From: Posidonia oceanica
Lineage: Eukaryota > Streptophyta > Magnoliopsida > Alismatales > Posidoniaceae
Direction of reading: 5' to 3'
DNA length: 64,000 nt
NCBI GenBank assembly: GCA_037176725.1
Contig: JAZBRS010000020.1
Location: forward strand, 57,998,001 to 58,062,000
Below the pieces are notes generated by a model. The model was not told the DNA's origin and did no database searches. It saw only the letters and a list, made by a program, of their open reading frames with translations. This document shows positions 20,096 through 62,248 of this stretch, piece after piece (positions within the stretch are counted from its first letter, which is position 1; each line of letters opens with the position of its first letter). The position numbers were made by a program, and so were the translations under genes.

Positions 20096-20099
20096 CAGC

Positions 20100-21457: not shown

Positions 21458-24400
21458 TGTTGACACCCCATTTCAACAAGGCTGAATTGGCAAGATCTCG
21501 GGCGGCTAGGAAAAACCAAAATTACACTTTTCCCCCTCACCCTTCCTTTCAAATCAAAACCCCACCTCAAACCTCAAAACCAAACCTAGAACCACACTCA
21601 TTTTCTAACCCAGAAAACCACCCCAAAACCCTCTCAAAATCTTACCCAGAAACCATCCAAAACCTTGCCCTAAAACCATCCAAACCTAGGTCCAAACCAA
21701 ACCCTCTCACTCTCCTCTTTACCCTTCAAAACAAGCCCAAACTCAACCTAGGATCACACCCCTTTCCCGAACCCAAAACCTGACCAAAATCCATAGGAAA
21801 ACCCATCAACACCTACTTAACAAATCCACCTAAACACCTAGAAATTCTCAAACCAAGACCATTCCCAAAAATCCTAGAAAACCTAGGCAAAACTACCCCT
21901 TTTCTACACCTTAAAACCCCTCCAAAACCTCCTTGGAATTAAACCAAAACTTCAGACCCAGCACTCCAAGTCCTAGCCTACCCACTCACCAATTTTCATC
22001 CCATTCCAAGACCTTTAATACCCCCATTCACCCAAATTATCCTTTTCTCTCTCCTGGATTATCATTTTCTCTCTCCTCTCTCTCTCCTGATTATCATCTC
22101 TCTTTTCATCACCCTCTTGCTCTTTTTCTTGCTTGGCTGTGGGCCCCCTTTGTGCCTCCATCCCTTCTCTATCTTATTCCTATTTTTACTTTATTTTTAA
22201 CATTTTTCCTGAATTTTAAAAAATCATTTCCCTCCAACTCATCTCTTTCCCTTTTATTTCTCCCTTTTTCCATTTTCTTCCTCCTTCTCTTTTCCTTTTC
22301 TTTCTTTTGCAAAAACCCATAAAAACCCCTAAAAATCTGTAAAATTCCAAAACATAAAAGAAACAAATCAGAATCCCAAGAAAAACAATTAAAAAACATT
22401 AAACAAGCAATTAAAAACTTAAACTTAACTAAATCAAGCTAAAAGGAAAGTCAAGCATGTAAACTAAAAAATGCACAACAAACCAAAAGAAAACACTGAA
22501 AAATCAAGGAAAAAACTAAAATAAAATCAAAACCCACCAAAAGTAAAAACCCCACTAGAAGAATTAAAAAACAAACCCTAAAAAGAAGAATTAAGAAACA
22601 AACACTAAGATAAATAATTAAAGAAGCAAAAAGACTTAACCTAATAAACATAAGAAAAACAACATAAGGACTCAATTAAAAAGAGAAAGAAAAAAAAACA
22701 CATTTAAAAGACTTAAAAACACCCCATAAAACCAGAGAAACCCAATTAAAAAACATCAAGAAAAATTAACAAATAAAAAAATCAAAACCTAATTCAAAAG
22801 ACTTAAGAAAGAAAAACCTAAAAGGCTAGAACTAAAAAGCCCAAAACCCATTCTAATTAATATAAAAATAAATCTTAAAAATCCTAATTAACATCCTAAG
22901 TGCTTAACAAGAAAAATACAATTTAAAAAACAATTTGAAAAGACTTAACAAACACTTAATCAAATGGAAAATGAATTAAAGACAAAAGAAAAATCTAAAA
23001 CCCTAATCAAGCCCAAAACATACTAATTAACCTAAAAAAAGTCACTAAAAATCTAATTAAAATCCTAACTCACAACACAACTTTTCTAGTAATTTTACTT
23101 ATTTTTAATTAATTTTTTTTTCTCTTCTAATTTTATTTCCTTTCCTTTCCCTCTCTTTCTTTCTTTCTTCCTTCCTCCTCTTCCTTTCTCCTTCCCTTTC
23201 TTTTTTTTCCCTTTCTTTTCCTATTTGGCAGGCCCAGCCCACGGCCAATTTCTCCTTCTTCTTTCCCTCCTTCTCTTCTTCTTCTTCTTCTTCTTCTTCC
23301 ATTCTTCTTCTCTTCTCAAAACAGAAACGACAGTCAACACCTCTCTCTCCTTGGTTTTTTTTTTTTCAAACCTTCACCTGACAGCCACCTTGACTTCCCA
23401 GCACACCCCACTACCCACGACCTCCATCACCACCCTGCCCTGTGGCCTGAAACCAAGGACAAAGACCCATGCCCTCTCCCCTTGACCTTGGAAACCAGCA
23501 AACTTTGGAGGAACAAAAAGGCTGAGATTTTGGATCCAAAAGAGGTTCGGCTTACACACCTGCAAAGACCAAGTCTCCAGCTCTCTCACCCTTCTTCCAG
23601 AACCCAAAAACACCCCCAATCCTTCCCGGAATCCTCCCCCGAAGTGGCCAGCACCCAAACAGCTCAGAACGACCTTCTTCATTGCAAACCCATCACCACG
23701 AGCATCCAAAAATTCCCAAGCTCCACCATCGTACTCACCAAGTTCCCACCTTCGCAACCCACCCAGTATCTCACCGTGAAACCTCCCACACTCCTCACAG
23801 TCCACTACAAACACTTGGGTCCCCTTTTTTGCCAAAATCTTCCAACATCCATAACTTCCTCCACACTCAGTGGAATCCACTTCTGTTTCCTCCCACACGC
23901 TCCTCGAACAACCACCTAGCCGCCCGTGCCTTGGCCTCGGCCTAGAACGCCGCACAACGCCGCACCCACCTCGGCCTTCACAGCAAAGCCTCTACTGAAC
24001 CAGATCTCGCCCCGGGCCGTAGAACGCGCTCCCGATTGCTCCGTCATCCTCCTTGCACCTCCGGCAACGCCCTCGAACCGCCCTCGCACCAGCAGCCGCC
24101 GTCCTCCGCCGTCTCCACCTCCCTCCGGCCGGCCCTGGATGGGTGGTCTCTTCCAGCGCGCGTGAGGGGTGAAGCAAGCCTCCACCGGATTCTCCTCCTC
24201 TCCCTCTTGCTCCTCGGCCTTTCCCCGAGGGTTTTCATCGCCTGTGCCGCCTGCAATCCCTTGCCGAAGTCATCGTCTTCTCCGGCGCCGGCCACCCCTG
24301 CAGTGGCCGTCGCGCGCCGTCCGGTCGCCCCACGCCCCGCTGCAAGCCTCCGCAGCTTCCGTCGCACCCCGCCGCTCTCTCCCCACGCTTCGCCGCCCTG

Positions 24401-31265: not shown

Positions 31266-31370
31266 GATGCCAATGAGTTTAGAACAAATGCATGCACCAA
31301 ATGCCAGATCTCAGAAAACATCTAAATCTCATTTGTAAAAGAAAACATGTTGAAAAAATGCAACAGAGGC

Positions 31371-31426
31371 GTAAGACACTGGTTTTTGTGCGTCTTACAT
31401 AAGACGCACCAGTTCTAGCATCCTAC
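31371..31426. repeat. Tandem pair of 28-bp hairpin units
   Basis: 31371-31398 and 31399-31426. Stems GTAAGAC../GTCTTAC and ATAAGACGC/GCATCCTAC flank variable loops. The centre of the pair is a GCGTCTTACATAAGACGC palindrome. Confidence 0.85.
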
Positions 31427-32369
31427 ACCATGGGAGGTTTTAGTGTAGAATTAAACATCCAAATCGATTCAAATCGGACGAAAAGCTATCGAATAAGAAA
31501 GAGCATCCAATGACGAACAAAATCATGCAAATTATATGGCAAATGGGCATCTGGATTGCTCCACCCACCTCCACTTGCTTTTGCCAGAAACTGATGAGTT
31601 CTCCGGCCACTAGAGGGACGGGAATCCCATGGAGCTCGACTACGACTCATTGTGGAGGCTTGGGAAGGTGGAGGGATGACTTTCTAGAGCAATGCAGGCC
31701 AAAACATGGGTCCCGGATGGATGGGTGAGCTTCGCATTCAATGGCTGATGGCCTCATGCGAGCAGACCCATCGCTGGAGACGAAGAAGAAGGCAAACAGA
31801 GATGCAAAATGCAAGGAAAACTCAAAGAATTACGTTGAAACAAAGCATCCACAATGGAGAAACAAAGGCTCCTACTAGGGAGAGGAAGAAACCAACCTGT
31901 GGTGCCGTTTGCTTGTGTTCCTCGACGCCGACGGTTCTCCCGGACTGCGGCTCAGGCGGTGACGGAGGGGAGTTGCTGGTGGTCCGATGGTGCTCGGGCC
32001 TGGTCTCGAGTGTTGCTGGAAGGGAAGCTTCGAGGTCAGGAAGGTGGAGGCTATGCTCTGGTTGGATGAATTATAATGGGTGGTCGGAGTTGGCTTGGGT
32101 TCCTCATGGATTGTGTTGGGGTGTGTGGGCAAAGTGGAGGTTGAGGTGGTTTGCTGGGACTGTGGAGTGGCCTGAGCGTGGAGAATTGATGCTGGATGGG
32201 AGGTGTGATGGCTGTCCAGATGCGGTGGCTGCGATGGGTGTGCTCTTGCCGAAGAAGAGAGAATTGACCGGTGAGAGGGGCTGTTGGATGTGCTGGTGGC
32301 TTGGGAAGCAACCAGGGGAGCAACAACTAGGGGAGAGGCAACCAGAGGGCTGGAGGTCGGTGGAGAGTG

Positions 32370-32376
32370 TTTTATA
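32370..32376 (-). promoter_or_regulatory. TATA box of the truncated LTR
   Basis: TATAAAA on the minus strand, about 460 bp from the LTR start, upstream of the GC-rich segment. The position matches those at 40749-40757 and 55131-55138. Confidence 0.55.
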
Positions 32377-32599
32377 CGAGTGGACGTTGCATGGATGCCA
32401 TCCATGCAGATCTAAGATTCCAAATAGCCAGCTGAGATGCATGTAGCAGATTGGATGGGAATTTGGCTTGCAAAGGGGGGCACGATGGTCCAAAAATAAC
32501 CAAGGAACACGCCCAGATCTGCACGGACCAATGGGGAGCGAGGATCAAGTGTTCTGGATGCAAATGGGCAAACCAATCCTCAGCTATTGATGCAGGGGT

Positions 32600-32714
32600 G
32601 TAAGACGCAATACTGACACGTGTCTTACATAAGACGTATAGAAACACAGCGTCTTATGTAAGACACAGAGAAACTCAGCGTCTTACGTAAGATGCAGAAG
32701 CTCTAGCGTCCTAC
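32600..32714. repeat. Four tandem 28-29 bp hairpin units
   Basis: Units at 32600-32628, 32629-32657, 32658-32686 and 32687-32714, without spacers. Each has RTAAGAYGC-like and GCGTCYTAY-like arms and a different loop. This is the longest run in the window. Confidence 0.88.
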
Positions 32715-32836
32715 AGTCTACAATGTGTTTTGGGGTGTTCTAGGTTGGGTTAAGGTTTAGTGGGGTCTGCCACAACCAAGCACATTCTTTGGGGAGAAAA
32801 CCGCCGACGAATGACTACAAAATGAAGGTGTCTACA

Positions 32837-33355: not shown

Positions 33356-35894
33356 TTACCTGTTAGTAACATCGGGATGGAGGTGCTGGATCCGCTCCAG
33401 CGTTGATGATGTTGCTGGTGCTGCAGAAGTTGCTGAAGCCTTTGGTGGGCCTGCTGTGGTGGCTAGTGATGCCATGGAGACTACTGATGGTGATTCTGGG
33501 AGCGCTGGGGATACTGGGGCCGATGGAACTGCTGACAACATTGCTGATGGTCCTGTAGCATCCTCGGAGCCTGTAGGCTCAGGCAAGGAAGGGTCGGCTA
33601 CACTAAGGTGTGCCGGTGCAGGTGCAGGTGTTTGTGTTGCCTCCTGCGCAACGATGCTGACGACCTTTCGGTCAATCAGGTTCTGAATAGCGTCCCGTAA
33701 GGTGACGTAGTTATCAGTCAAGTGCCCCGTGGGTCCATGAAAACTGCAGAACTGGTTCGTGTCGTGCCACCGTGGAGGTGGGTTCGGTGGCTAACGAACA
33801 GTCGGGAGCCTCAGAAGTGACTCGACCTGGGGAAAGATGACACTCAATGGCTCAGCAAGAGGAGTATAACCGCATTCAGCGCGACGAGGTCGTCTTTGCC
33901 CTGGTTGTAGTGCTTGCCGAGCTTGTGTGACATGATGCACCAGTTCGACGGTAGTGGCGATTTGTGAAGTGTGTGAAGGACTAAGTGCGTAAGCTAACTG
34001 AGTAGGGCCTGGTTGGCTCGTTGTATTGACAAGCTTTGTAGGAGATTTGATGTATGCAACGGCTTGTTGATTGGGGTTGCTGGTGACAGAGTCATTGTGG
34101 CTGTTGCTAATGCGGCGATTGTTGCTTCTAGGGTTGGCCTACCCAGCCAATGCGGTGAGTGCGAGGAAGTTCCCACTTTGCAGTGAGCTTTCCACGTGGG
34201 CACCAACTATAATCAGTGATGCAAAGCTAGTGATGGGCTGAATTCAGAGTAGAGCCCCAGTTGCTGGCTGCGCCCCCATGATAATCATCTCGATAGACTC
34301 CTCATCGGAGGGTCTATCCCTGACTTGGGCGGCTAGGGAATGCCAGCGATCGACATACTCCTTGAATGGCTCATGGGGCCTCTGCAGGATTGTGACAAGA
34401 TCCTTGTGCTTGGGGATCAAGTCGATGTTAATGGAGTACTGCTCGAGGAACGCCTGGCTGAGGTCATCCAAGGTCTTAATCGAGGCCATGTCTAGGGAGG
34501 TGAACCACTTTAGAGCAGGTCTGGTAAGACTCTTCTGGAACAGGCAGATCAAAAGCCTCTCGACAGCCTAAAGCTGAGCGAGGTCTCCACAGTATGCCCT
34601 CAGATGTGAGATTAGGCAGCCTCTACTGTTATACTTCTCAAAATCTGGGATGTGGAAGTTCGGAGGGAGTGTTGCCTCTAGGAAGTAGTAGAGGTCCTAG
34701 AATTGGTAGGACTCGTGGTCCCCACCTTGCACTTGACAAAGTGCTCTCTCCAGATCACCCTTCTTAGCAAGGATGGTGTCTAAGGTCGCTGCTGATGAGA
34801 CTGGTGCAGCTGAGGAGGTGCCGCGTACGCTGTATGGGTCGCACCTAGGTGCTTCTCCAAACCCACCATCACGCCACCTGGTGTCGAGGCGTGAGGACCA
34901 GCGTACCCGTGCAAAGGTGATGAGTGTAGTGGCATGCATGCTGGGATCTGTATCTGCTGATGCATGGTAGACGGATAGGTTAGATGCTGTGCTATGTAAG
35001 GTGTACTGTGTGGAAGCAGTAGCTATTGCACTAGGACGGTCCCAGGCAATGGGCTCAAGGGGTGCTGTGCTCTTACCAACCTAGGGGAGTGGCCATCAGG
35101 TGATGGAGTAGCATGCTGTGCAAAGTGCTGTGTAAATACAAGAGGGAGAGATGGCGCCCCCATCGTCGAAGCTGAGAAGAGCTGGGGTGATGGTAAGGGC
35201 GGAAGTGCAGTGAGGTGAGCCTGTAGAGATAAAGTGGGTTGCACCAGAACCTCAAGGGTCGAAAGAAATGGGACAATCGAAGTAGGATCGACGGAAAAGA
35301 CCATGCCTCGCAGCCTCTACGCTAGAGCCATCAGATGCTACGCTTAAAGGACTCGTCGACAGGCAAGTCGGAAGGCAAAAGGATGACTGCCAAAGGGGGC
35401 ACGAAAGCAGAAGAGCCAAAAGGGAGAGGCCCTATAGCAGAGGCAGCCGCAAATGACTGGATTCCTGAAGCAGGAAGGCCTAGGGAAGGGAAGACAGGCG
35501 ACACACCTGGAACTCAAGTGGCGGTCATTGTGATAGATTTGGTAACGGGCTCTAGACCAGCCTAGGTCTGCCATTGTACCAGAGTGAGAGGAAAGGAATT
35601 CCCTTGCGCCTGATACTGGCACATAAGAGGGGACAAAGGGATGACAAAGGTCAAAGTGAGAGAAGGAGGGACCGAAATCGGGATCTCCTCTGATGCAGCA
35701 GAAGAAAGAGGCTTGCTGGTTTTTTGGGCAATGGCTGACTGCGAGTGGGTACGGATAGGGCTGCGGTTGAGAGTAGAAACACGAGACCTAAGACGAGCTA
35801 TTTTCGGAGGCGACAGATAGCTCGAGGATAGGAAGGAGGACCATGGGAAGCTGCCCATGACAAGGACGCTCGAGCTCTTGGCTGAGGACCTCAC
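33356..35894 (-). pseudogene. Decayed Tat-type gag
   Basis: Homologous to the giant's gag throughout but split among frames. The N-terminus (RSPIRTHSQSAIAQ at about 35690-35780) matches the giant's RSPILTRSRSAMAQ. The capsid core is open at 34244-34552 (LFQKSLTRPALKWFTSLDM, RDRPSDEESIEM). The zinc-knuckle region near 33720-33770 reads CSFHGPTGHLTDNY, with the last Cys changed to Tyr. Coding ends at 33356; protease and pol are absent. On its right it connects to leader, primer site and LTR in the correct order for a minus-strand element. Confidence 0.8.
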
Positions 35895-36757
35895 ACCTAC
35901 CTATGGACTGGCAAAAACAACAACAGGTGTCAGAACATGGACACAATGCAGGTTATTATGGTGGCATGAATGGCACACATGCGAATGAATGTCCTAACAT
36001 GTGCTCTTTCACCATCTATGTATGTCCTTAGTAGGCTGTCTACTCTGGAATCACTCAGGGGTATGGGTCATTGATTTAGGATAGAAAGTAGGTCCCCGTG
36101 TAAATCCTGGCCAAAGCCCAGGCAGTAAACAAGTGGTGCGTCCGGAGCCTCGACCCTGCCAAAGCATGGACTGTATCCTCTACTAATACCAACACAACCC
36201 TGGACAAGGGGGGATAGACCGACAACTCGTCCAACGCCAAAGCCATAGAACGAGAAACTGGGGGTCCTTCTTTGACTGAGTGTGTGGACTCAAGAGATGA
36301 GTATATGCATGCTTCTATATGCTTATTCATGCAAATATGCTTTGTTTTTTTTACTTGCACTTTATTAAGCCAATGGGGGAGGCTGCAGATTTGGCTCTAG
36401 TTGTGTCTAGATGTTGTTGTTTTGCTTTTTTGGTAGCTTTTAGATTAAGCCAGAGGGGAGGCAAGCATATCTCTAATTTTCCTAGGCATGGCAAATGCGA
36501 AAAGGGGAAAGAGACATGAAGTCATGGCATGCAAGCAATCATACATCAAGCAAAAGGCATGAGCATGGCCTGTGCAAGTGTGGTTGCATAGTATATGTGT
36601 GCGAAATAAACATCTGCCATAGAAAAGGCATGCAATATAGCATTAAGCAAGATATAAACGCATGGATAAGCACAATAAGGCAAGCAAAGGCAAGGCAAGC
36701 ACAAACAATAAACCATGCAAGTGAGAAAAAGCCAAAACAAAAGCCAGAGTCTAGCAT

Positions 36758-36775
36758 TCCCCAGCGGAGTCACCA
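36758..36775 (-). promoter_or_regulatory. Primer binding site, copy 1
   Basis: TGGTGACTCCGCTGGGGA, one base different from the giant's site, five bases from the LTR end at 36781. Confidence 0.75.
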
Positions 36776-36780
36776 GTTCC

Positions 36781-38029
36781 CGTGACCACGCCGGTGACGT
36801 GGGTCGGCACGCGCAACTGGAGAGAGCCACGCACGCAAATCTGATAAGGTCTCGGCGAATGGTGCATCTGAGGATAACTCGACTCGAAAACACCGAATGC
36901 GAAGAAAACAAAAGATAAGACAATGGAGTCGCCATCTAGTCTATTGGAATCGGAAGACCAGGAAAATCGAATGCAAAACACGATTTGCATTGCAATATTG
37001 AAAACAAAGTGATCCGTGCCAATGGATGAGACACATTGGTCATTACGGCGTAAAGAAAGGGTAAGGACTCTTGTTACGCATGGGGAAGGTGTTAGGCAAC
37101 CCCATGCACCCGACAAGTCGTTCTTTCTAGGCTTAATCGCTCACTTGTATGGCTAATGTAAGCAATGAATGCCGATAAATGTATGACTCAAGGGCAATAT
37201 GAGATTCCTTGCAAATATGAATGTGTGCTCCTAATGTATGCCTAGATGCCATGATGTTAGATGCAAAATGCCATGCAAATGTTTGTAAAACATGCGATCA
37301 GAAGAAAATCAGAAGCTATAAGTCTGAAGAGAAGCAACAAAGCAAACAATCATGTGCTCTATTTGCACTGTTCTTGATCTATGCAAAAACAGAGGGCAAC
37401 CACGGTGGCTACAAGCGGTACATAGCTGTGGTAACTACACACGTGCCAGTGTTCTGCTTCTAGACAGTAAACATTCCTTACACGAATTGCATAACGAAAG
37501 CGATTCAAATCAGTTAAGCAATCATCAACAAAGCAAGAAGGAACACTCACGAACAAAACAATGTGATAAAACAATATCAGGGATTCACGTCGCCAGAGTT
37601 CTATGGGTCCGACGGACATGGAGAAGGTCGGGAACCTCTAGGACTCTCTCACGGCTTACTACAGACGGAGAGGAAGAGAGTGAGAAGAGATAATGCAATG
37701 CCGATGCAAAATAAATCAAGTGTGATTCCTCCCCGTCCTCGTTGGGTCACGCCAGAGTTCTCGGGCCCGTTCGGCCATGGGTGAGGCCATGACCATGAGA
37801 AACTCCTCTGTAGTGTCTTGGAGGATGAAGGGGAGGAGGAAACCAAACAATGCAAGAAAAACTAAAAGCAACTTGTCGAGATGGGTTGAGCCTCGTGTTC
37901 AACGGCCGACGGTCTCATGTGGGTGGTGAACCCATTGCCAGATAAGACAGAGAATGCAAGTTGAGAAGAAAAATAGACAAAACATAGATAATTCCACATC
38001 AAGGAAGCAAACCACAGCAAGCGGAAAGG
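36781..38029 (-). repeat. Partial Tat-type LTR (3' portion)
   Basis: Carries the conserved stem-loop (37078-37107) and the U5-like end with the AATAGACTAG..GGCGACTCC string shared with the giant's LTR. The 5' portion is missing. Confidence 0.75.
37078..37107 (-). other. Conserved LTR stem-loop (minus element, copy 1)
   Basis: GCATGGGG pairs perfectly with CCCCATGC around the invariant CCTAACACC; the stem sequence differs from the giant's but pairing is kept. Confidence 0.65.
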
Positions 38030-39074
38030 ACCTATGACGAGCTATTGTTGGAGGTGACAAATAGCTCAAGGACAGGAAGGAGGACCACAGGAAGTTGCCC
38101 GTGACAGGGACGCTCGAGCTCCTAGCTGAGGACCTCACACCTACCTATGGACAGGCAAAAACAACAACAAGTGTCAGAACATGGACACAATGCTGGTTGT
38201 TATGGTGGCATGAATGGCACACTTGCGAATGAATGTCCTAACATGAGCTCTTTCACCATCTATGTATGTCCTAAGTTGGCTGTCTACTTTGGACTCGCTC
38301 AGGGGTATGGATTATTGACTCAAGATAGAAAGTAGGTCCCCATCTAAATCCTAGCCAAAGCTCAGGTAGTGAACGGGTGGTGCGTTCAGAGCCTTGACCC
38401 AGCCAAAGCATGGATTATACCCTCTACTAACACCGACACGACCCCAGACAAGGGGGATAGACCGACAACTCGTTCCATGCCAAATCCATAGAATGAGAAA
38501 CTGGGACTGTCTTTCTCAGACTGAGTGGGTGGACTCAAGCAATGAGAAGATGCATGCTTCTATATGATCATTCATGCAAATATGCTTTGTTTTTTTTACT
38601 TGCATTTTATTAAGCCAGTGGGGGAAGCTGTAGATTTGGCTCTAGTTGTGTCTAGATGTTGTTGTTTTGGTTTTTTGGTAGCTTTTAGATTAAGCCAGAG
38701 GGGAGGCAAGCTTATCTCTAATTTTCCTAGGCATGGAAAATGCGAAAAAGGGAAAGAGACATGAAGTCATGGCATGCAAGCAATCATACATCAAGCAAAA
38801 GGTATGAGCATGGCATGTGCAAGTGTTGTGTCAACATGACGGTGAAGATAGAAAACATCCATCACATCAAAAGGTATGTGGCTTAGCATGTGCAAGTGTG
38901 GTGGCATAGTATATGTGTGCAAAATAAACATCGCCATAGAAAAGGCATGCAATATAGCATTAAGCAAGATATAAAGGCATGGATAAGCATAATATGGCAA
39001 GCATAGGCCAGGCAAGCACAAACAATAAACCATGAAAGTGAGAAAAAGCCAAAACAAAAGCCAGAGTCTAACAA

Positions 39075-39092
39075 TCTCCAGTGGAGTCACCA
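39075..39092 (-). promoter_or_regulatory. Primer binding site, copy 2
   Basis: TGGTGACTCCACTGGAGA, a decayed version of the site at 36758, five bases from the LTR. Confidence 0.7.
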
Positions 39093-39097
39093 GTTCC

Positions 39098-41293
39098 TAT
39101 GAACATGCCGACAACGTGGGTCGGCACGCACGACCGGAGAAGCCACGTGCTCGAATCCAATAAGGTCACGGTGAATGGTGCATCCGAGGAGAACTCGACT
39201 CGAAACACCGAATGCGAAGAAAACCAAAGATAAAATAATGGAGTCGCCACCTAGTCTATTGGAATCCGAAGATGACGAAAATCGAATGCAAAACACGATA
39301 TGCAATGCAATATTGAAAACAAAGTGATCTGTGCCAATGGATGAGACACATTGGTCATTACGGCCCAATGAAAGGGTAAGGACTCCTGTTATGCATGGGA
39401 AAGGTGTTAGGCAACCCCATGTGCCTGACGAGTCGGTCTTTCTAGGCTTAATCACTCACATGTGTGGCTAATGTAGGCAATGAATGTCGTTAAATATATG
39501 CCTCAAGGGCAATATGAGATGCCTTGCAAATATGAATGCATGCTCTTAGTGTATGCCTAGATGCCATGATGTTAGATTCAAAATGCCATGCAAATGTATG
39601 TAAAGCATGCGATCAGATGCAAATCAGAAGCAATAAGTCCAAAGAGAAGTAACTAAGCAAACAATCATGTGCTCTGTTTGCATTGTTATGGATCTTTGCA
39701 AAAAGCAGAGGCAACTATGGTGGCTACAAGCGGTACATAGCCATGGTAGCTACACACGTGCCAGTGTTCTGCTTCCAGACAGTAAACATTCCTCACACGA
39801 ATTGCATAACGAAAGTGATTCAAATTAGTTGAGCAATCATCGACAAAGCAAGAAGGAATACTCACGAACAAACCAATGCGATAAAACAATATCGGGGATG
39901 CACGTCTCATCTTCCCACCTCCGTTTACACGTCGCCGGAGTTCTATGGGTCCGACAACCATGGAGAAGGCCAGGAACCTCTGGGATTCTGTCGTGGCTTA
40001 CGGTAGATGGAGACGAAGTGAGAGAGAAGAGATAATGCAATGCCGAAGCAAAATAAATCAAGTCTGATTCCTCCCCGTCCTCATTAGGTCACGTTGGAGT
40101 TCTCGGGCCTGTTCGGCCATGGGTGAGGCCGTAAGCACGAGAAACTCCTCTAGAGCCTCTTGGAGGATGAAGGGGAGGATGAAACCAAACAATGCAAGTA
40201 AAACTAAAAGCAACCTGTCCAGATGGGTTGAGCCTCGCGTTCAACGGCTGACGGCCTCATGCGGGTGGTGAACCCATCGCCGGACAAGACAGAGAATGCA
40301 AGTCGAGTAGAAAAACAGACAAAACACAGATGATTCCTTGTCTAGGAAGCAAAGCACAACAAAAGGAAAGGATAGCTAGACTAAGGGAGTGGGTGCTTGG
40401 ATGTCTCTCCCAACGTCGGCGATTCGCTCCGGGTTGTTGCTGCTTGGGCGGCGACGGAGGAAGCAATGAAGGCTTGGCTAGTGGTCAGGGGACGGTTGGA
40501 GGTGCTTAATCTCCCTCTCACTGGCTCAAGGAAGGCTTGGGTGGAGGAGGTGAAGGCTGTGCTCTCGGTGTTCTCTCGATGGTAGGGTGTTAGGCTAGTG
40601 CAGTGGTTTGCTATGGTCAGCAGTGCTAGCGGATGCAAGGGAATGCAACTAGAGAGTCGTGGGAGCAACCAGATGCAAGGGAGGCAAGAGTCTAGGAGCA
40701 AGAGAGGTTAGCCAGCCAAGAGAGGCTTCTCGTGGGAGAAGAAGGCTAGTTTTATAGAATCTGAAATGCATGAAGGCCGTTGATGCATAACAGAATTTGA
40801 AGTGGTTGGTTGGGATTAAATGAAGAGGATTGGATGGGGATTTGGATTGGGATGAGGGGTACGATGGTCTTGGCACACCTAGGTACATGCTTAGATCCAT
40901 GCGAGCCAATGAGAAGCAGGGAATCAGTGATCCAAAGGCAAATGGACCAATCGACCCTTTGGCTGCTGCTACTGACACAGGGCATCTGCAGTAGTTATCC
41001 GCAGTACTCACCAACGATGCCTAACAACAGTGGTCACTAGTGGTGGTTAGCCGCAGGACACCTGTTGCAGGGCCTGTTGCATGATTTTTTGGCCTGTTTC
41101 CATGAGTGCTTAGACCACAATGGGCTCTAGGCTTGTGGTTCTGGATAGATTTATGGTCTTGGGTTAGGTTCGGGATATTGGGTTGATTTATGAGAAGGTG
41201 GTTGGGTCTTCCACGTCGCAATTGGAGCAAGCTCTTCCAAAGGAGTTCGTAGAGAAGTTCGCTGACAAATGGCCTCAAATCGGGGTGTCTACA
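39098..41293 (-). repeat. Complete Tat-type LTR, 2.2 kb
   Basis: On the minus strand it starts TGTAGACACCCC at 41293 and ends TTCATA at 39098. It is the same family as the solo LTR at 54579-56922, collinear from end to end. TATA box TATAAAAC at 40749-40757, stem-loop at 39394-39421. It lies directly against the LINE endonuclease frame at 41294; a predicted CCATC duplication cannot be confirmed because the other end of the element is lost. Confidence 0.85.
39394..39421 (-). other. Conserved LTR stem-loop (minus element, copy 2)
   Basis: CATGGG/CCCATG pairing around CCTAACACC. Confidence 0.6.
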
Positions 41294-44545: not shown

Positions 44546-46998
44546 AATTTCATGAGGACATGTCCTTGCCAATTTAGATCTAAAATATCCAGCACTGTGG
44601 GCCGTTTTCCCCCTTTCTTTCCTTGCTTCCTTCCTTCCTCTCCTCTACACAATCTCCTCCATGCACTCCCTCTCCTCCTCCTGCACACACTGTTTTCCTC
44701 TCCTCCTCCTCCACACCCTCTTCCTATCCTCCTCCTGCGCACCCACTCCTCCTCCTCCTTGCCACCACTCATTGTAACGACCCTAATCGTCACACACTTA
44801 ATAATTTTTTTTACATCACATATCACTACAGAAACTAAATCCAAATGCATAATATAAAGCACTGTAATCAACATAATTGAATCTAGAATAGTTTACTTAC
44901 CCAGAACCCTTGATGTGTGACAGAGTGACTCCCTTCTATGTGCACTAGCAAGATATCCTACTCCTATCCTACACCTGTAAAATATAAAACAAAGCACACA
45001 TGAGTGACCACTAAAAAGGTCACCCAGGACACACCCACCCTATCACAAACCAAAACCAACTCTACAGAACATCACTGGAAAAACTAGGTGCAAAACCATG
45101 CAGAAACAACAGAACTCATGCATCACACCTGGACGCCACAAAACCACAACTAGGCAATCCACCATTGCCCAACAAGCATAAATCCCATAAAATATGCCTT
45201 TCAAAATCATTTTTCTCTTTTTCAACCAAAACCATATGCATATTTTCAAACCTCTTATGCATGTTTGAAATGGCTACTCTACGCCAAGTCAAGTCAAAAC
45301 TAGTTTCATTGTACTTCTCCAATATCGAAGCCACAATGACTGAAGCACAGAAAATATGATGCATCTTCCCAAAGAAGCATGCATCCAAAGCTCAAACACC
45401 AAATATGCTAAAATCTCGAAGCAGGATGGAGTACTCAACTATCTTGAGTACTCAAAACCACGAGGTTTGAACCCACACACTCTCTGTGTGGAACAGATAG
45501 CAATGGTATTTGAATGCTCTCTATCGCAAACAGCACAACCACAACAACCACACACATACACTGGCCACAAGCTGCAGCCGTTGAAGCACCACTGCACTAC
45601 CACTGACAAGCCCACAGCCTATCCGTCTCATAGTCCAACCTCCTTGGATGGACCCTCAACAATGTGTCGTGTTGCCCGGCGCCAAGCAACCAACACTGGC
45701 CACAAGCAGCTACCGAAGTGCACTGCACTGCCATGGACAAGCCACCCTGTGAGGAGCTTGCCCGTCTTGAAGTCCAACCTCTTTGAAGGACACTCAAAGT
45801 GCTAACCCTCCTTGGGAAAGCTGTCCTCTCTCTCAGGATGTCATCAGAAATAGGGCACGTGCAACTACTCGTACTGGCCAAACAACACAGGGTCCACCCT
45901 CTCGGCGTCCTAGTCTCAGTGCCAGGAGCAACCAAAGTCTCTCACCTCCGGTCTAGTCGGCACCAGAAGTCTCAATGCCCTGAGCAACCAGAGTCTGATA
46001 TCTCTGGGTCCGGATGGCACATCAACCTATGAACCTCAGCCTAGGCTTCGTGCTTGACCACTCAGGAGTCTCATCATACTCCCTGGTCCCGACAACACGA
46101 CCCTCCAGCCTATTGGCTCTAGAACCTCATCCTTGGACATCACACCCAGCTACATAATGCTATCATATCCCCTGGGCCCACTGTCATGATTCCTCGACCT
46201 CTTGGTTCCTAGACCTCAGCCTTGGACTTGTGCTTAACTTTTCCAGAAGTATCATACTCTCTAGATCCACCAGCACAATCCTACAACCTCTTGGTCTCCA
46301 CAAACAAAAATCAGTGAAAAACATTTTCCAAAACCTTTGCAAAACGTATGCATTTCTTTTCCAAATCCCTTTTGGAAAATCATTTTTAGAATCCTTTCAT
46401 AATCACTCCAAAACACCATGCAAAACTCTGCATAAACACTACACCGAAAACACCACACAAAACCAACACAGGATCAATTCACAAACTTTGAAAAGCAAGC
46501 CTAACTCACTACTAGGCCAGAAACTCGCACAGACATTATGCGGCAGAGACAGGTGCCTGTCTCCCACACCATCGGCACAAACCAAAACACATTTGGGAAT
46601 TGATCTCAATATCCTAGCACAAAACGATGAAAGAAACACAAGGCATCAAATCCAAAACTCTTAGAATAAAGGTCTTGAAGCCTCGTTAGCCACAAGACTA
46701 AATCTAGAAAAAACCAACACCCAAAACTTCAAGTTATGGAAAAGAAGTGTAGGATGCAAGCTGCCCTGGGTCCAACATAGGACACGTCCAGGTATTCGTT
46801 CTACACCCACACTAGTACCCTTAAATCCATAACTCAATGCACCACACACATACTTACAAATTGTCAAGTTATGGTCAATATCATAAAATCAACCATAACC
46901 CTACCATCATTCAAAGCCATTAGGGGAGTTTAGTTTCCTAGATCATCATATTATTGAATTTCTAAGCAGAGAAATGACCAAAATCTAGCTTCGTAGGT

Positions 46999-47054
46999 GT
47001 TAGATGCATAGAATGCTGCGTCTTATATAAGACACATCAAATCATGCGTCTAAC
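46999..47054. repeat. 28-bp hairpin unit pair 1
   Basis: 46999-47026 and 47027-47054. Outer arms GTTAGATGC and GCGTCTAAC, centre GCGTCTTATATAAGAC. Confidence 0.82.
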
Positions 47055-47226
47055 ACTCATGCCATAGATTCCTAACAAATTCTTCCTAAAAATCCTCGTG
47101 CACCCTAATCATCGCATTGAGGGATCAAAATATTACTAAAAGGCATCTATTTCCATTGCATGCAATCTATTTCAACTCTCAGAATCAATTTATAATACAT
47201 CAAATCATGCATTGCCTGCCTGGGGT

Positions 47227-47282
47227 GTAAGATGCTACAAATCATGCATCTTATATAAGACTCATGCAGCTCCGCGTCATAC
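47227..47282. repeat. 28-bp hairpin unit pair 2
   Basis: 47227-47254 and 47255-47282. Outer arms GTAAGATGC and GCGTCATAC, centre ATCTTATATAAGA. Confidence 0.8.
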
Positions 47283-47461
47283 ACCCAACACTCAGATCAT
47301 TCAATAATCTTCTAGAAAACTATCATGCACATACATTACATGATCAAGGATTCGAAATAGGAAAGGAACGAAGTATTTTCTACTGCATGCATCACATATC
47401 CAGATCTCAAAACCAATATGCTACTCTATAAGAAAAACCTTCAGAAATCTGTAGAATAGGT

Positions 47462-47517
47462 GTATGGCACAGCTGAGCATGCATCCAATATAGGACGCAC
47501 TAGACTGTGCGTTCTAC
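47462..47517. repeat. 28-bp hairpin unit pair 3
   Basis: 47462-47489 and 47490-47517. More decayed arms (GTATGGCAC, GCATCCAAT, ATAGGACGC, GCGTTCTAC), but the spacing is exactly kept. Confidence 0.72.
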
Positions 47518-48347
47518 AACCAAACTACAGAAACTAAATAGAAACTCCTAGATTAAGCATACAAATCTAACCATCTCATGCATGTACCATAGTATAACTA
47601 GAAGAGCATCTAATACCCTACGTGCAACATAAATCTAACCATTAAATAAATCTAAGCTACTTCTAATTGGGTGTGTACCTTGCACCCAAGAGAAAAACCC
47701 ATGTCCAAGCAACAAATCCTCCATGTAAGGCCAGAGCTCTAAGAATCCTTCTAACCACTCTTCAAGAATCCTCTGAGCTCCCATGATCCCCTAGCCACAC
47801 ATGTAGCACCAAAGATCCAAACAATGAGTGCATGCATGCATGAAAGAAGGGATGAGAAGAAGAGAACCCAAAACCAAGGAACCTAACACTCACCTGGAAA
47901 CTCATGGTTGCTGCATGCCTTCCAAAACTCCAAAGAGCACTCATAGAACTTCCTCCATCAATCTCAGAGCTCCTCCAACTCCCAGTAGCACATGTAACAC
48001 CAAAGATCAAATCAAAGAGTGCATGCACATAAAAAGGAGAGGGAAGACAATGCTCAACCTCAAAAAGCCCTTACATTCAACTCTAGGTTGCATGCACCAC
48101 AAGATCTCTCCTCCTGAAGCTCCAGAGACGACCAAGTTCTTCCAAGAAACACCTTCACAGCCACTAACAACATGCATGAAGAAGAACCCAACATGCAAGC
48201 TCAAACACACCTTCTTCTCCAACATGCAAGCTTCAAGCAACCCCCATCTCTCTCTCTCTCCCTCTCCTAAGAATCCTCTGGAACCCTCTCTCGCTAGGTA
48301 GGGAAGGAGAAGAGAAGGACAAACAAGAGAAGTGGCAATGGCAGGGA

Positions 48348-48355
48348 CTTATATA
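48348..48355 (-). promoter_or_regulatory. TATA box of the 3.8 kb LTR
   Basis: CTATATAAGT context on the minus strand, followed downstream by CCCTGCC and a C/T-rich stretch. Confidence 0.5.
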
Positions 48356-48396
48356 GGCAGTAGGCACACGAAGTAATTCTGGAAATGACTCAAGGT

Positions 48397-48452
48397 GTTA
48401 GATGCAAGATCTATTGCATCTTACATAAGATGCATGAATATACGCATTGATC
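48397..48452. repeat. 28-bp hairpin unit pair 4
   Basis: 48397-48424 and 48425-48452. First unit GTTAGATGC..GCATCTTAC; the second unit's right arm is decayed. Confidence 0.75.
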
Positions 48453-48476
48453 AACCTGAGTTTCTTCAAGCCAAAT

Positions 48477-48532
48477 GTTAAATGCAGCATATATAGCGTC
48501 TAACATAAGACGCAACTATTTCAACATCTAAC
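48477..48532. repeat. 28-bp hairpin unit pair 5
   Basis: 48477-48504 and 48505-48532. Arms GTTAAATGC..GCGTCTAAC and ATAAGACGC..ACATCTAAC. Confidence 0.8.
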
Positions 48533-48891
48533 ACACTAGGATTTCCAAATTAAATTCCTGGCCTAAACTGCTACATAAAATCTAGGTCGTTACACTCCTC
48601 CTCGATCGCTGCCGACTGCAACTCCACTTCGGCACTCCTCCTCGATCGCCAGCCTTCCTCCACCACCCTCTCTGCCTCCACCTACACCTTTGAATGTGAC
48701 TCCTCTCTGAGGCCACTGATTGCGCCTCTAACTCCGCCTGCACCTCTGACTTTGCCTCCTCCCTCCGCTTGCGCCTCTGACTTCGCTTGTGCCTCCGACT
48801 TCGCCTGTGCCTCTGACTCCACCTCCTCCCTCAGCCTCGCTGTGCATAGTATGTTTTACTCTCTTGTGTTACAAGATGGTTGTGTTTTACT

Positions 48892-49690
48892 CAAGGTTCA
48901 AAACATCGATGTCGTGTCGGACTTCGGTCCGACAGAAATAGGAAACGTGTCGGACATCAGTGGAAATGTCGATAGAAACACGGTAATTTTACGAAAGTTC
49001 ATGAAAATGGTCAAAAAACTTCGAGTTTTGCTTTGAAACTTTAGGATAAGCTAAAGTAAACAATAATCTACATTTAAGACTACTTAAATCAACTTTCTAA
49101 ACATGTATCATGTTGAAATACACTATATGGACTTAATACAAATATTTTGAAGTATAAATAATATGTAAAAATACTTAATAAATAAAGTTAAGAGAATACT
49201 TAAGTGTTGGATATGTGGAATATGATTGAGGATTACCCAGATGTTGCCACTTCACAGAGTTCACGGGGGTCTCGCTCTCGTCCCGAAACGGTACACGATT
49301 ATATGAGTATCTTGATTTTACAAATTTTATAGATTTTATAGAATCATTAGGTTAGATCTATGTTTTATTAGGTTAGATAAATGTATTATTAGGTTAGATT
49401 TATGTAATATCAAGTTATTAATATCAAAACACAAAAAAAAACATAAAAAAACCTATGACCGAAATTTTGCCCGTGTCGGTACTAAAAATGAGCATGTCAG
49501 CCGACACGTCATTCTTGTGTTGTAAAAACTCAACGTGTCAGTCGACACGGTCGACATGCTCGACTTGGGACCGAAATTACCATTGAAATCTAGCATTCAC
49601 CGATTTACTCCCTAATGTCGTTTCTCTATTTTGCATTTCCGACACGTGTCGGCGACATTTCGCTGACACGTGTCGATTTTTTGAACCTTG
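48892..49690. mobile_element. hAT-like MITE, 0.8 kb
   Basis: Inverted termini start CAAGGTTCAAAA and extend imperfectly for about 25 bp (ATCGA..GTGTC). They are flanked by a perfect 8-bp duplication GTTTTACT (48884-48891 and 49691-49698), as for hAT. The interior is non-coding with GACACGTGTCGG-type palindromes. The flank contains other GTTTTACTCTCTTG copies, so the duplication is less diagnostic than usual. Confidence 0.7.
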
Positions 49691-58167: not shown

Positions 58168-58496
58168 TGTAGCGATCCCATGAGTTTCGCGATCGTCCGT
58201 GGACGTTGCCAGAGCTCGCGTGCACCTATCAGAAATCAGGTTCACTATTAGCAGGTGATATGAGGAGGAAACTCGACTCAAAACACCGAAAACAGAGGCA
58301 AAAAGTCAAAGGGAAAAAGAAAGAAAAAGGAAAAGGGAGTTGCCACCTAGTCTATTATGGGGAAGATGAGGAAAACTAAGGAAAAGCATAGAAAACAAGC
58401 AAATAGATGCAATGCTATGCAAAAATGGATGACTCGTGCCAAAGACGAGGGCAAAATGGTCACTACGGGCTAGAGAAAGGGTAAGGACTCCTGTTA

Positions 58497-58529
58497 CGTG
58501 CGGGGAAGGTGTTAGGCACCCCCGACACG
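58497..58529 (-). other. Conserved LTR stem-loop (58-61 kb LTR)
   Basis: CGTG-CGGGG pairs with CCCCG-A-CACG on the plus strand; the apical GGTG..CACC is kept. Confidence 0.65.
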
Positions 58530-59041
58530 CCCGAGAAGTCGGTCTTTCTAGGCTAACTCGCTCGCATATGCTGGAAAATGCATGCTTTGAATGCCTAAGT
58601 GCCATGAATGCCATGTATGGAAATTAAACATGCTGTCTATGCGCTCAGCAGCACTGCCAGTGTTCCAAACCGGGTGAACCCTGGTTCGTAAGAACTCCAG
58701 GCAGTAAGCATCACTGCCCTAAATGCGAATGCAGGTGATAAAACAAAACGGTGAGGAAAACCATGCAATGCAAGCGACACGCAAGGGATAAAGCAAAAGC
58801 GGGTGTGGAAAACGATGCAAAAGCACGAAGAGTGATACAAGCGAGCGATATGCAAGAGAGAAAGCGAAAGCAGGTCAGAGGTGAAAACCATGGGAAAGCA
58901 TGCAAGGCAAGGCACAAAACCAAAACAGGGTGGTAGGCAGCGTGCACGGGTGTCATAGCATACATAAGAAGCAATAAAATGTGGAAAACGGCGAGCAAAG
59001 CAAAATTGGCATTTCAAAATCAAGTTTAGCCAACTTCAAAC

Positions 59042-59098
59042 ATTGGACATAGCAATAATTGCGTCCAATGTTGGACGCTGGAATTGCTGGCGTCCAAC
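59042..59098. repeat. 29-bp hairpin units, pair
   Basis: 59042-59069 (ATTGGAC..GTCCAAT) and 59070-59098 (GTTGGACGC..GCGTCCAAC). Confidence 0.88.
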
Positions 59099-59278
59099 AC
59101 CTGTTGAAGGCAAACAGCATGCAATTTTTAAAAAAGATGCATTCTAGCTATATGAATGTGTTGCAGATGTAGAGATGCAGTAGAATGGGTGGATGACATG
59201 CAGAGCAATTAGGACAGCAAACCAGAGACAAGCTCAGAACAGGATGCAAGCAAAGATCAGCATTTAAGCAAGCAGGGC

Positions 59279-59336
59279 GTTGGACGCCTGATGGCATGGC
59301 GTCCAACGTTAGACGCTAGAGTGACTAGCGTCCAAC
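59279..59336. repeat. 29-bp hairpin units, pair
   Basis: 59279-59307 has perfect 9-bp arms GTTGGACGC/GCGTCCAAC; 59308-59336 has GTTAGACGC/GCGTCCAAC. Confidence 0.9.
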
Positions 59337-59507
59337 ATAGGCCAAAGGACAGCATAGCAAATCAGCACACAGACGATGAACAAACTATGTAAGCAGGCAT
59401 TCAGGCCACTGTAAGCAGGCATAGGCTAAACATGCAAGCACAGGATATGAAAAATTCGAGAAAAACAACATCTGCAACGCATGCAAGGCATAAAGCCCAA
59501 CCAGAGC

Positions 59508-59565
59508 GTTGGACGTGAGCTACACTTGCATCCAACACTGGACGCGACGAACAGCAGCGTACAAC
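59508..59565. repeat. 29-bp hairpin units, pair
   Basis: 59508-59536 (GTTGGACGT..GCATCCAAC) and 59537-59565 (ACTGGACGC..GCGTACAAC). Arms decayed, unit length exact. Confidence 0.8.
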
Positions 59566-59737
59566 GCACTGGGAGGCACAATCAAACAAAAAACCTGCAT
59601 AAAACTTGGATATAAGCTATAAAAGCTGAGGAGCAGTTGCTACGAAGGCCAAGCAAACATACAAGCATAGAGAACTTGCAAACAAAGGGATCAGAGCATC
59701 ATGCAAGCACCTAAAACAAGAATAACTGAGCAGCGAC

Positions 59738-59795
59738 GTAAGATGCTGGTAGCAGCAGCGTCCAACGTAGGACGTTAAAGCCCCCAGCGTCCAAC
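59738..59795. repeat. 29-bp hairpin units, pair
   Basis: 59738-59766 (GTAAGATGC..GCGTCCAAC) and 59767-59795 (GTAGGACGT..GCGTCCAAC). The first unit's left arm is of the TAAGA type seen in the other LTRs. Confidence 0.85.
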
Positions 59796-60119
59796 ACATG
59801 AAGGATGCAAACCTACCTGCAAAGGGGGAGCTCAGCTCTAAATCCCACTTAAACATGCATGCAAGCTACTGAGGACATGCCAGATCAAGAAAAAACACTT
59901 ATACCAAGCATATAATACATGAGAAGCATGTAAGAAAGAATATGCATAGGAATAAAGGGGTAAAAACCCATGAAAAATAGCATGCAACTTGAGGGGAGAC
60001 TAGCAAGCTTAAGTATGGTTGCCATAGGGGCCAGGCATCACTAAACATGCATGGATCATGTATAAGTCTCAAAAAGAAGCAGGATACAAGTATGGCAGCA
60101 GATGTAAGCTAGCAGATAT

Positions 60120-60177
60120 GTAGGACGCTGGATGAACCAGCGTCCAACGTTGGACGTGACTCACTCCAGCGTCCAAC
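60120..60177. repeat. 29-bp hairpin units, pair
   Basis: 60120-60148 (GTAGGACGC..GCGTCCAAC) and 60149-60177 (GTTGGACGT..GCGTCCAAC). Confidence 0.88.
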
Positions 60178-60367
60178 GCAGGCAGACAGCAGAATGATCT
60201 AAAGCATGCAATATTGATTCAAGATGGGATCAAAACATGAAAGCAGACATGGCACAGCATCTGTAAGCATGTAAGGAAAGCATGCAGAACAAACTCATAA
60301 AAGGCAAGCACAGCAAAGCATGGTAAATTCCAAAGTCGAAGTGAAGGAAGACAAGGCACAGCAGGGT

Positions 60368-60395
60368 GTTGGACGCACCAGGCTGTGCATCCAAC
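60368..60395. repeat. Single 28-bp hairpin unit
   Basis: GTTGGACGC..GCATCCAAC. The only unpaired unit in this LTR. Confidence 0.75.
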
Positions 60396-61264
60396 AAGGC
60401 AAGAATCCTTCCGGCCAAGGACGGTGGCCAAATCGGCCCAAAACTTCAAACAAACTTGCTAGGGAGCAAGTGTGGCCGACGACAAGCATGGTGGTATGGT
60501 TGGTGCCGAAAATAGGTGGGTGGATTGCTCCACCCACCTCCTCCTCCTCGCGGCCAGAAAGCCAAGGCAGGGAGGGGTGTGTGCTGTGCTAAAGGGCGTG
60601 GAAAGCATCTAGGAACATTCCTACACACATGCACGAGCTATGGGGATCGAGAGCCTACCTTGGCGCGGCCTGAAGTGGCTGTTTGCGTTCCTCGTCGGCG
60701 CTACGGAAGGTGGCGGCCGGCGAACTCCGGCGAGCTTGCAGAGTGCGTAGGAGGCACGGGAGAGGGAGCCAGAGGTCTAGGAGTGGAGGTGGGAGATCAC
60801 TCTTTGCTCTGGAGGTGGTGAATTCTCTCTTGGATGGGTGTGGTGTCTTCTGGAAGGGGGAGAAGTTGCTGGTTTTGTTGATGGGTTCATGGGTTCGTGT
60901 GCATGGCAGTGGCTTTGGGCTGGCTTTGGACGGATTTTGTAGGCGATTGCAGGTGTGGTAGGGGCTGCTGTGAGTGGGGAATCCACGAGGGATGTCAAGC
61001 GAAGGCATGGGGCTTGTTAGAAGGTCGAGGAAGTCTTGGTGGTGGCAGGTGGAGGCAGCCAAAGTCAGTGACCGCGGAGAGAGTGGAGGTCACGTTGGGG
61101 CGGAGGAGATGGCTTGGCAGGGCAGTTACTCAGCCTTGGCAGCTAGTGGATGGCTTGGAGTGGCGAGTAATTGGCCGAGGAGACTAGTAGTAAGTGTGTG
61201 CAGGCGGTGGAGTGGACGGGAGGTGAGCCAGAGGTGGCGGAGCAGCTGCTGCACCTCTCGAGTC

Positions 61265-61351
61265 GTTGGACACTAGTGCAGAGCGCGTCTAACACTGGAC
61301 ACTAGTGCAGAGCGTGTCCAACGTTGGACGCTGCCCGTGCCAGCGTCCAAC
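61265..61351. repeat. 29-bp hairpin units, triple
   Basis: 61265-61293, 61294-61322 and 61323-61351. The first two share the loop core ACTAGTGCAGAGCG, so they look like a recent duplication. Confidence 0.88.
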
Positions 61352-61592
61352 ATGCCCAGGAGGCCAAAGGCTGGAATGGGCTTGGTCCTTGGTTTTAAAA
61401 AGTTTTAAAAAGGTGTAAAAGGCTTGGGTGATGGTTTTAGGGTTTAGGTGAGGTTTTAGGGTTGGTTTAGGAATGGGATTTGATTTTAAGGTCAAAATGG
61501 GTTAATTTGAAAAAGGAGAGCCATCCCAGAGTCCAAGCAAGCTTTCCAGAGAGGTCGATCATCTTCTAAGCAGTCAAAATGGGTTGTCAACA

Positions 61593-62248
61593 GATGCCTC
61601 TCCCTAAGCGAGGTTAAGGGGGACCGAGGCTGCTACTTAGAGTAGACATGACATCCCTCTTGATGCCAGTAGAAGCGCGAAATTGCTGTGGGCCTGAGTC
61701 ACTTATTTGGAGGATACACCGAAAATCATGACCCGTTCCCGCAATGTGAATGCAAATGTACATGCGAATGTAGATGCAATGCAAAGTGATGCAATAATGC
61801 TGGTGCTAAAGTAAAAACCTGCACTAGTGTTTGCTGCATTGAACTCCGTGGGGGAGATGAGGGCGATGCATGCTGATATGATATGAGATGCGACCTCGTT
61901 GGGGAAAGCATGTAATGCTTGTGTGTATGATGCTGATATCTATCACGCAATGCTGGTATTGCTATCTAACATGCAATGCTGATGCAATGAATAATGAGTT
62001 GACGAACTCATTGCTGGATAGTTTGGGTTATCGGCCCAAGGAGTTGACAGACTCTTTACTGGATAGTTAGGGCTATCAGTCCAAAGAAAAGGACACCGGA
62101 CAGGGTGACGGGTGTCATCCGAGCAGTTTGGGTTGCCAGCCCAGAGAAGATACCGAGGGCAGCAAAAATAAGATGCCCCTGGTATCAGGGATGATACTAG
62201 GGGATAGCTAAAGTGCCCGTGGCATCGAAAGAAGGGTTGGACAGTTAT
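61593..62248 (-). other. 3' UTR of the minus-strand Tat element
   Basis: Next to the LTR on the minus strand is a GGGAGAGGC polypurine-like tract. Further upstream are modules also found in the giant's 3' UTR: GGCCGATAACCCAAACTATC, ACTGATAGCCCTAACTATC, GGCTGGCAACCC, the CCCCT..AGGGG hairpin (62176-62203) and CTTTCGATGCCAC. Module order differs from the giant. Interrupted at 62249. Confidence 0.75.

Follow-up and report, generated by a model that had tools for sequence, protein, structure and literature searches.

Spacing-locked, head-to-head hairpin units in long terminal repeats of Posidonia oceanica Ogre/Tat-like retrotransposons, a candidate cis-regulatory array

Long terminal repeats (LTRs) of retrotransposons in Posidonia oceanica carry hairpin units of 28 or 29 bp, each built of two inverted 9-base arms, GTTnnnCGC and GCGnnnAAC, that stand 10 or 11 bases apart and are often joined head to head into doublets. 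Here, we report these units from LTR D, which we take to be of the Ogre/Tat clade, within a window of 64,000 nucleotides (the whole stretch analyzed; GenBank assembly GCA_037176725.1, contig JAZBRS010000020.1, positions 57,998,001 to 58,062,000), and from elsewhere in the same genome. From the sequences compared, we conclude that it is chiefly the sequence, direction, and spacing of the half-sites that are maintained and that arm pairing is a weaker or indirect constraint. On balance, the units probably form a cis-regulatory array that acts at the DNA level, its arms serving as half-sites for a sequence-specific DNA-binding protein; because arm motif, direction, and spacing are what is chiefly kept, such an array is favored over an RNA hairpin or a mobile REP-like element.

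All 14 units that a preliminary description had listed in LTR D were found at the same starts. Twelve are 29 bp and two are 28 bp long, in runs of 2, 2, 2, 2, 2, 1, and 3, and 6 to 9 of the 9 arm positions form Watson-Crick pairs in each unit. That description had confined the units to one LTR; 18 more, some of them weak, lie in two further LTR-type stretches of the window, C (12 units spanning 46749-48532; weak units, 46777, 47255, 47462, and 48425) and E (6 units spanning 31371-32714). The window was searched with the arm pattern at a free length of 24-35 and scored out of 18. Among the 32 window units, 25 scored at least 16, all of them 28 or 29 bp long; one other match was as strong (24 bp at 56599, outside the unit-bearing stretches). 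The remaining 7 of the 32 scored 14-15 and were retained as neighbors of stronger units, their length being partly chosen. A covariance model built from the 32 units recovered all 32, by construction, and gave no match with E <2 in the rest of the window outside the three unit-bearing stretches (best other match, E 2.3). Rfam gave no match over the whole window at the gathering threshold, so by that test the units are not in a described RNA family. Arms are spelled mainly GTTGGACGC in D and GTAAGACGC in E and are mixed in C, and comparison of the window with itself found no match of LTR D, C, and E to one another.

An arm-agnostic scan of the 64-kb window for joined hairpin pairs returned 7 (LTR D, 4; the related run at 32600, 3), versus 1 overall in 10 Markov-shuffled windows. 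LTR D held 22 hairpin matches (overlapping lengths counted), whereas 60 shuffles averaged 1.6 and never exceeded 7. A chance origin of the units was ruled out by the shuffles together with reversed-pattern controls.

Genome-wide counts were made in the window's own genome (2.96 Gb) with the pattern GTTnnnCGC-loop-GCGnnnAAC, in which only GTT, CGC, GCG, and AAC were fixed and loops of 9 to 12 bases were allowed. Loops of 9, 10, 11, and 12 bases occurred at 307, 65,123, 123,619, and 110 places, respectively (reversed-pattern controls, 71, 5, 117, and 21). Loops of 10 or 11 bases thus make up 188,742 of the 189,159 places (99.8%) of the four lengths counted, with 0.2% left for 9 and 12 together. 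The preliminary description was right that units keep their length and their arrangement in pairs while loops diverge, unlike microsatellites or ordinary minisatellites. The head-to-head junction without spacer (GCGnnnAAC-GTTnnnCGC) was found 81,048 times (control, 9), and the same junction with one extra base was found 4 times (control, 81). Fixed-sequence searches gave 47,725 copies of GCGTCCAACGTTGGACGC and 1,303 of GCGTCTTACGTAAGACGC (reversed controls, 0 for each). With a loop of 11, same-direction arm pairs numbered 1,399 on one strand and 1,354 on the other; among the matches listed, 96 of 100 start with GTTT or GTTC, resembling other repeats. Some loop-11 places are a different inverted repeat, GTTAGTCGCC...GGCGCCTAAC (5 of 63 among the matches listed). 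A further short repeat among the own-genome matches consists of GTTTTCCGC-like direct repeats. In viral contigs, the D-type junction was present in 4 stretches, none with units, and the E-type junction in none.

A wider range of loops was allowed in 20 loci of 9.9 kb on one contig, picked for the D-type junction and hence not random, which were analyzed together with the window. With loops of 4 to 18 bases open, 253 of 256 units scoring at least 16/18 and 187 of 188 scoring at least 17/18 had loops of 10 or 11 bases; under the strict arm pattern with any loop from 0 to 37, 96 of 99 did. Gaps between neighboring units were zero in 139 cases and never 1-9 bp, and the next mode was 160-199 bp (61 gaps; peak, 172). 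Run sizes in the loci and the window were two (122 times), one (80, including chance matches), three (7), and four (1). Once units had been masked, 144 runs from the loci and the window could be sorted by their flanks into 12 groups with no between-group similarity detected; these groups cover only units with 10- to 11-base loops, and since D gives two of them and C another two, they are contexts rather than families.

Pairwise comparisons were made of LTR D with two close and four diverged copies. Identity was 88.5% in arms, 65.5% in loops, 73.4% in spacers, and 70.0% in the remaining LTR, and gap openings per 100 bp numbered 0.46, 0.77, 1.13, and 1.49, respectively. Against the close copies L023 (10 of 14 units comparable) and L025 (13 of 14), the 414 arm sites showed 31 transitions and a single transversion, and the 250 loop sites showed 22 transitions and 16 transversions. 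The difference in transversions was significant (Fisher P = 1e-6), whereas transitions were alike (P = 0.56); because L023 and L025 share common ancestry, L025 was also tested alone (P = 0.0009). In our reading, the transitions reflect post-insertion decay of methylated cytosines, and the scarcity of transversions points to constraint in the active lineage. Arm mismatches at 59738 (positions 3-4), 60120 (position 3), and 59308 are identical at those sites in D, L023, and L025, so they were inherited and not repaired. Whole units do come and go: D has one exact unit more than both close copies at 59508 and one exact unit fewer to the left of 60368. The latter unit, described earlier as single, stands alone in D, whereas both relatives compared have a left partner and so a doublet. 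Exchange or slippage between directly repeated arms would explain such gain and loss. Spacers keep weak similarity in 3 of 28 pairs (in 0 of 200 shuffles), and for this reason the doublet period of about 230 bp may be a decayed tandem repeat.

A further amendment to the preliminary description is that LTR D has its sense on the minus strand. Its U5-side (3') part matches, reversed, the LTRs of a plus-strand element, A (423-27244), and positions 61577-61783, beyond LTR D, match the stretch that precedes the 3' LTR of element A; the 5' LTR that belongs to D lies outside the window. Reverse transcriptase (RT) and RNase H followed by integrase is the Ty3/gypsy order. Element A, which presumably belongs with its relatives to Ogre/Tat, encodes gag, RT with RNase H, integrase, and an open reading frame (ORF) with a plant mobile domain (PMD; 17715-18983); its RT-RNase H comes before integrase, which makes it Ty3/gypsy and not a Ty1/copia Sirevirus. 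D-like stretches (whole or U5 part) precede a sense gag in four loci (L020, L021, L025, and L039; gag, 37-54% identical), so that gag after a D-like LTR is an observation on relatives and not on D itself. Gag, RT, or integrase of element A matched 15 of the 20 unit-bearing loci, and the PMD matched one more. In a protein search with RT, the top matches were about 65% identical, and the named ones were from plants (best 120 of 7275 matches). C and E are assigned as LTRs on the basis of ends and architecture; C has a possible 5-bp target duplication (CTCAT/CTCCT, 4 of 5 bases alike), and no long direct repeat was found within it by the window self-comparison. The distance from the LTR start to the promoter-side cluster is 188-261 bp in the 6 of 10 D-like copies whose LTR start was found, 62 bp in C, and 122 bp in E, and a TATA-like box follows the cluster downstream in C and E. 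Farther in, about 1-2.6 kb from the LTR start, there is a second cluster, and the presumed promoter is upstream of most window units.

In the proposed array, each arm (GTT-nnn-CGC) would be the half-site of a putative DNA-binding protein. Half-sites alternate in direction (> < > <); facing half-sites are 19 or 20 bp from each other, about two helical turns, and the middle two abut without tolerance as an 18-bp dyad. We infer a dimer that sits rigidly on this junction and touches the outer half-sites with a leeway of one base, a placement from which it would follow that the doublet is one composite site. The bound factor would most likely control LTR transcription or chromatin state, because doublets are found at intervals of about 230 bp, both upstream and downstream of the presumed promoter. 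Units on either side of that promoter, alternating half-sites, a junction with zero tolerance, and loops with a tolerance of one base would all fit a protein assembly on DNA. A more specific proposal, which draws on analogy and which we consider unlikely, is that doublets serve as composite operators for a specialized trans-acting system common to many Ogre/Tat families; a protein, possibly element-encoded (e.g., by the PMD ORF of element A), would bind the half-sites and hold LTRs open or silenced, as VANC does for VANDALs.

Several observations weigh against a DNA-level array. The genome counts, the 188,742 strict places among them, are largely of retrotransposed copies and not of independent events and are therefore inflated, and the 10 D-like LTRs all lacked a TATA-like box within 700 bp of their promoter-side cluster. 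The presumed promoter is upstream of most doublets, and at those doublets RNA structure is likewise possible. Six doublet-type runs tested are predicted to fold strongly as RNA (z, -3.9 to -9.6), as single strands of such palindromes must. The compensatory change for which the preliminary description had proposed a test was in excess in three sets of units and not in excess in two. Within-locus pairing was in excess in 130 de-replicated units (z, 3.1); in 96 strict units from the loci and the window, middle-triplet pairs numbered 225 of 288 versus 214.3 (P = 0.008), with exactly complementary triplets in 53 of the 96; and in 100 loop-10 units among the matches listed, 33 had exactly complementary middles versus 14.2 expected (7 versus 3.0 when stricter de-replication reduced the 100 rows to 30). 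In the 32 window units, 26 cells had changed on both sides versus 16.7 when shuffled. The first and last loop bases pair in 43 of 63 loop-11 units among the matches listed (29.1 expected; standard deviation, 2.8), a result that slightly lowered our confidence in the DNA-level array and slightly raised that in pairing; loop ends also pair above chance in LTR D (19/42; P = 0.003) and over the 32 window units (33/96; P = 0.036).

These pairing and folding results speak for a structured RNA or cruciform, in which hairpins or fold-backs of the LTR transcript, or extruded DNA, would be selected (for packaging, dimerization, RNA stability, or as a small-RNA template) and the arms kept for pairing. 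Within their own locus, though, the 32 window units pair no better than shuffled right arms (222/288 versus 219.0; P = 0.26), and the excess appears when right arms are shuffled over all units (203.4; P = 0.0001). In the 130 units, junction partners (z, 2.5) and outer partners (z, 3.2) are in excess much as own partners are, as if the arms of a doublet were merely alike. Middles are not exact complements in 67 of 100 loop-10 and 27 of 63 loop-11 units (both among the matches listed) and in 43 of 96 strict units; the loop-11 middles show no excess (36 of 63 exact complements versus 34.4; P = 0.30; all GGA with GGA), and mismatched pairs were passed on unaltered. Pairing of loop ends did not reach significance in the 130 units (z, ≤1.9) or in C and E. 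An RNA loop should tolerate changes of length, yet loops of 9 and 12 bases are rare, and C and E also have units that precede the TATA-like box. Selection for pairing is, in our judgment, rather unlikely to be what maintains the units. Neutral turnover of a functionless palindromic minisatellite by slippage, unequal exchange, and conversion would account for whole exact units gained or lost between close copies, for runs of one to four, and for the weak spacer similarity; conversion would, however, have to homogenize 9-bp arms and yet spare the 10- to 11-base loops and the spacers, and this origin sits poorly with transversions about 26-fold rarer in arms than in loops at similar transition rates and with identical spacing across 12 flank groups. 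We hold it to be decidedly unlikely. Cassettes of the REP or mitochondrial double-hairpin type, to which the units had been likened, could by inserting as units place the same motif in 12 flank groups and differ in presence between copies. At the two places compared (three copies), one exact unit was gained or lost beside another within the same LTR, with no target duplication or other sign of insertion, which arm-repeat exchange explains; the regular placement about every 230 bp and the lack of window matches with E <2 outside the three stretches also make insertion highly improbable.

Table 1 Coordinates of the unit-bearing stretches and their features in the window
Feature	Positions	Strand	Remarks
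LTR D of Ogre/Tat-like element	58168..61592	-	TG...CA ends, 3425 bp; internal region runs on past 61592
U5-side block shared with LTR A (5555-5974, 26613-27032)	58397..58791	-	76% identity
D, doublet, units 59042 (28 bp) and 59070 (29 bp)	59042..59098		
D, doublet, units 59279 and 59308 (29 bp each)	59279..59336		
D, doublet, units 59508 and 59537	59508..59565		One unit only in L023 and L025
D, doublet, units 59738 and 59767	59738..59795		
D, doublet, units 60120 and 60149	60120..60177		
D, single unit (28 bp)	60368..60395		Left partner exists in L023 and L025
D, promoter-side triplet, units 61265, 61294, and 61323	61265..61351		241 bp inside LTR start
Stretch C, probably a solo LTR, TGTAACGACC...GGTCGTTACA	44773..48594	-	Ends read; LTR status and strand inferred
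C, four doublets, 46749, 46999, 47227, and 47462	46749..47517		Units taken as 28 bp; spacing 250, 228, and 235 bp
C, two promoter-side doublets, 48397 and 48477	48397..48532		62 bp inside LTR start; 42 bp upstream of TATA box
C, TATA-box-like CTATATAAG	48348..48356	-	
Stretch E, probable LTR shortened at 3' end	31267..32836	-	Left boundary approximate
E, doublet, units 31371 and 31399 (28 bp each)	31371..31426		
E, four joined units, 32600, 32629, and 32658 (29 bp) and 32687 (28 bp)	32600..32714		
E, TATA-box-like GTATAAAAC	32369..32377	-	224 bp downstream of four-unit run

Other dyad repeats were seen in and around these elements. The LTRs of element A (423-6186 and 21458-27244) are 5.8 kb each and 98.9% identical. 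At 5163-5544 and 26221-26602, directly before the conserved U5-side block, they hold a different array, a 30-bp repeat built on a GGCAC-8 bases-GTGCC dyad and present in about 12 copies, which may correspond to the D units. Tandem repeats of 56 bp, in which a GATAAG-8 bases-CTTATC hairpin occurs at 7 places, lie in the 3' internal region of element A (19608-20883) and are followed by GATAG...CTATC arrays, and the internal region of D (61993-62143) has short repeats with GAGTT...AACTC and TTGGG...CCCAA dyads. Several inverted repeats based on CGTGTCGG/CCGACACG lie at 48926-49672. A minus-strand Ogre-like stretch at 35785-40372 is in tandem duplicate (about 2.3 kb; 87-90% identity), and units were not found there. 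Five of the sampled loci (L022, L024, L028, L035, and L036) represent another Tat-like family, with unit groups 15-20 bp apart and, in 4 of the 5, RT pieces 49-66% identical to element A; loop-10 units in that part of the contig (C1) have richer middle triplets (ATA, GGC, GTA, and AGC).

The statement in the preliminary description that no plant LTR feature of this form had been described was too strong. High-copy palindromic motifs are known from Sirevirus (Ty1/copia) LTRs, and these are the closest known relatives in kind; in the part of the paper used here, 117 of 127 LTR copies of the palindromic RM boxes are grouped within the upper LTR half, from 200-400 bp off the edge onward and upstream of a TATA box, and the boxes have a CGG-CCG core, differ in motif between elements, and are proposed to be cis-regulatory (Bousios et al. 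2010; PMC2829016). The units share with them the character of a short, dyad-symmetric, high-copy LTR motif with divergent flanks. They differ in host, Ogre/Tat-type Ty3/gypsy instead of Ty1/copia, and in the absence of a CGG-CCG core, the GTTnnnCGC arms in their commonest form (GTTGGACGC) containing no CGG. Between the arms there are 10-11 free bases, locked, where the RM boxes, as that part presents them, have a few. The units also form head-to-head doublets with a period of about 230 bp that extend downstream of the presumed promoter; a cluster upstream of the TATA box, as in Sirevirus, is seen in C and E and not in the 10 D-like LTRs. The tandem BII boxes in U3 of Tnt1, a Ty1/copia element, reportedly form a repeat of about 30 bp with dyad symmetry that acts as LTR enhancer, in few copies and with a different sequence.

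VANDALs are DNA transposons. Their VANC target motifs, 8-9 bp long (YAGTATTAY, AGTTGTCC/AGTTGTAC) and bound by the element-encoded VANC (Hosaka et al. 2017; PMC5735166), are likewise short non-coding motifs that grow through tandem repeats, co-evolve within a family, and differ between families, and the portion of that paper drawn on here describes no locked inverted spacing for them. In maize, palindrome clusters of Sirevirus LTRs are sources of small RNAs, and the need for regulation was suggested to be at odds with the production of small RNAs (Bousios et al. 2016, as cited in PMC10760457); in the section used, palindromes are concentrated in the LTR cis-region, as here, whereas Ty3 elements are generally without a structure peak (PMC10760457). 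Retand, a plant Gypsy of a related lineage, has family-specific tandem repeats, which according to the part used are internal, between pol and the 3' LTR (PMC11963269), whereas the units lie in LTRs and keep one motif geometry across families. By analogy, the present array would work like the Sirevirus and VANDAL motifs, and by the tests made it is a member of neither. A literature search on Ogre/Tat LTR palindromes (titles and abstract starts; best 20 of 46 and 2 of 2) returned no description of the spacing-locked form, and one with the 9-base arm words (best 40 of 256 titles) returned none on plant LTRs.

The clade of these elements makes up a large share of some plant genomes. One base-exact motif geometry has been kept in LTR stretches that can no longer be aligned, and its length rule is a sharp search term for other species. 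A putative reader of the motif, whether the host's or the elements' own, would offer a general means of controlling these elements, and 188,742 strict copies in one genome would be a large binding-site sink for a host factor. If the doublet were indeed a trans-acting operator, it would be the first self-versus-host address system in plant LTR retrotransposons known to us, with nearly two hundred thousand sites in one genome.

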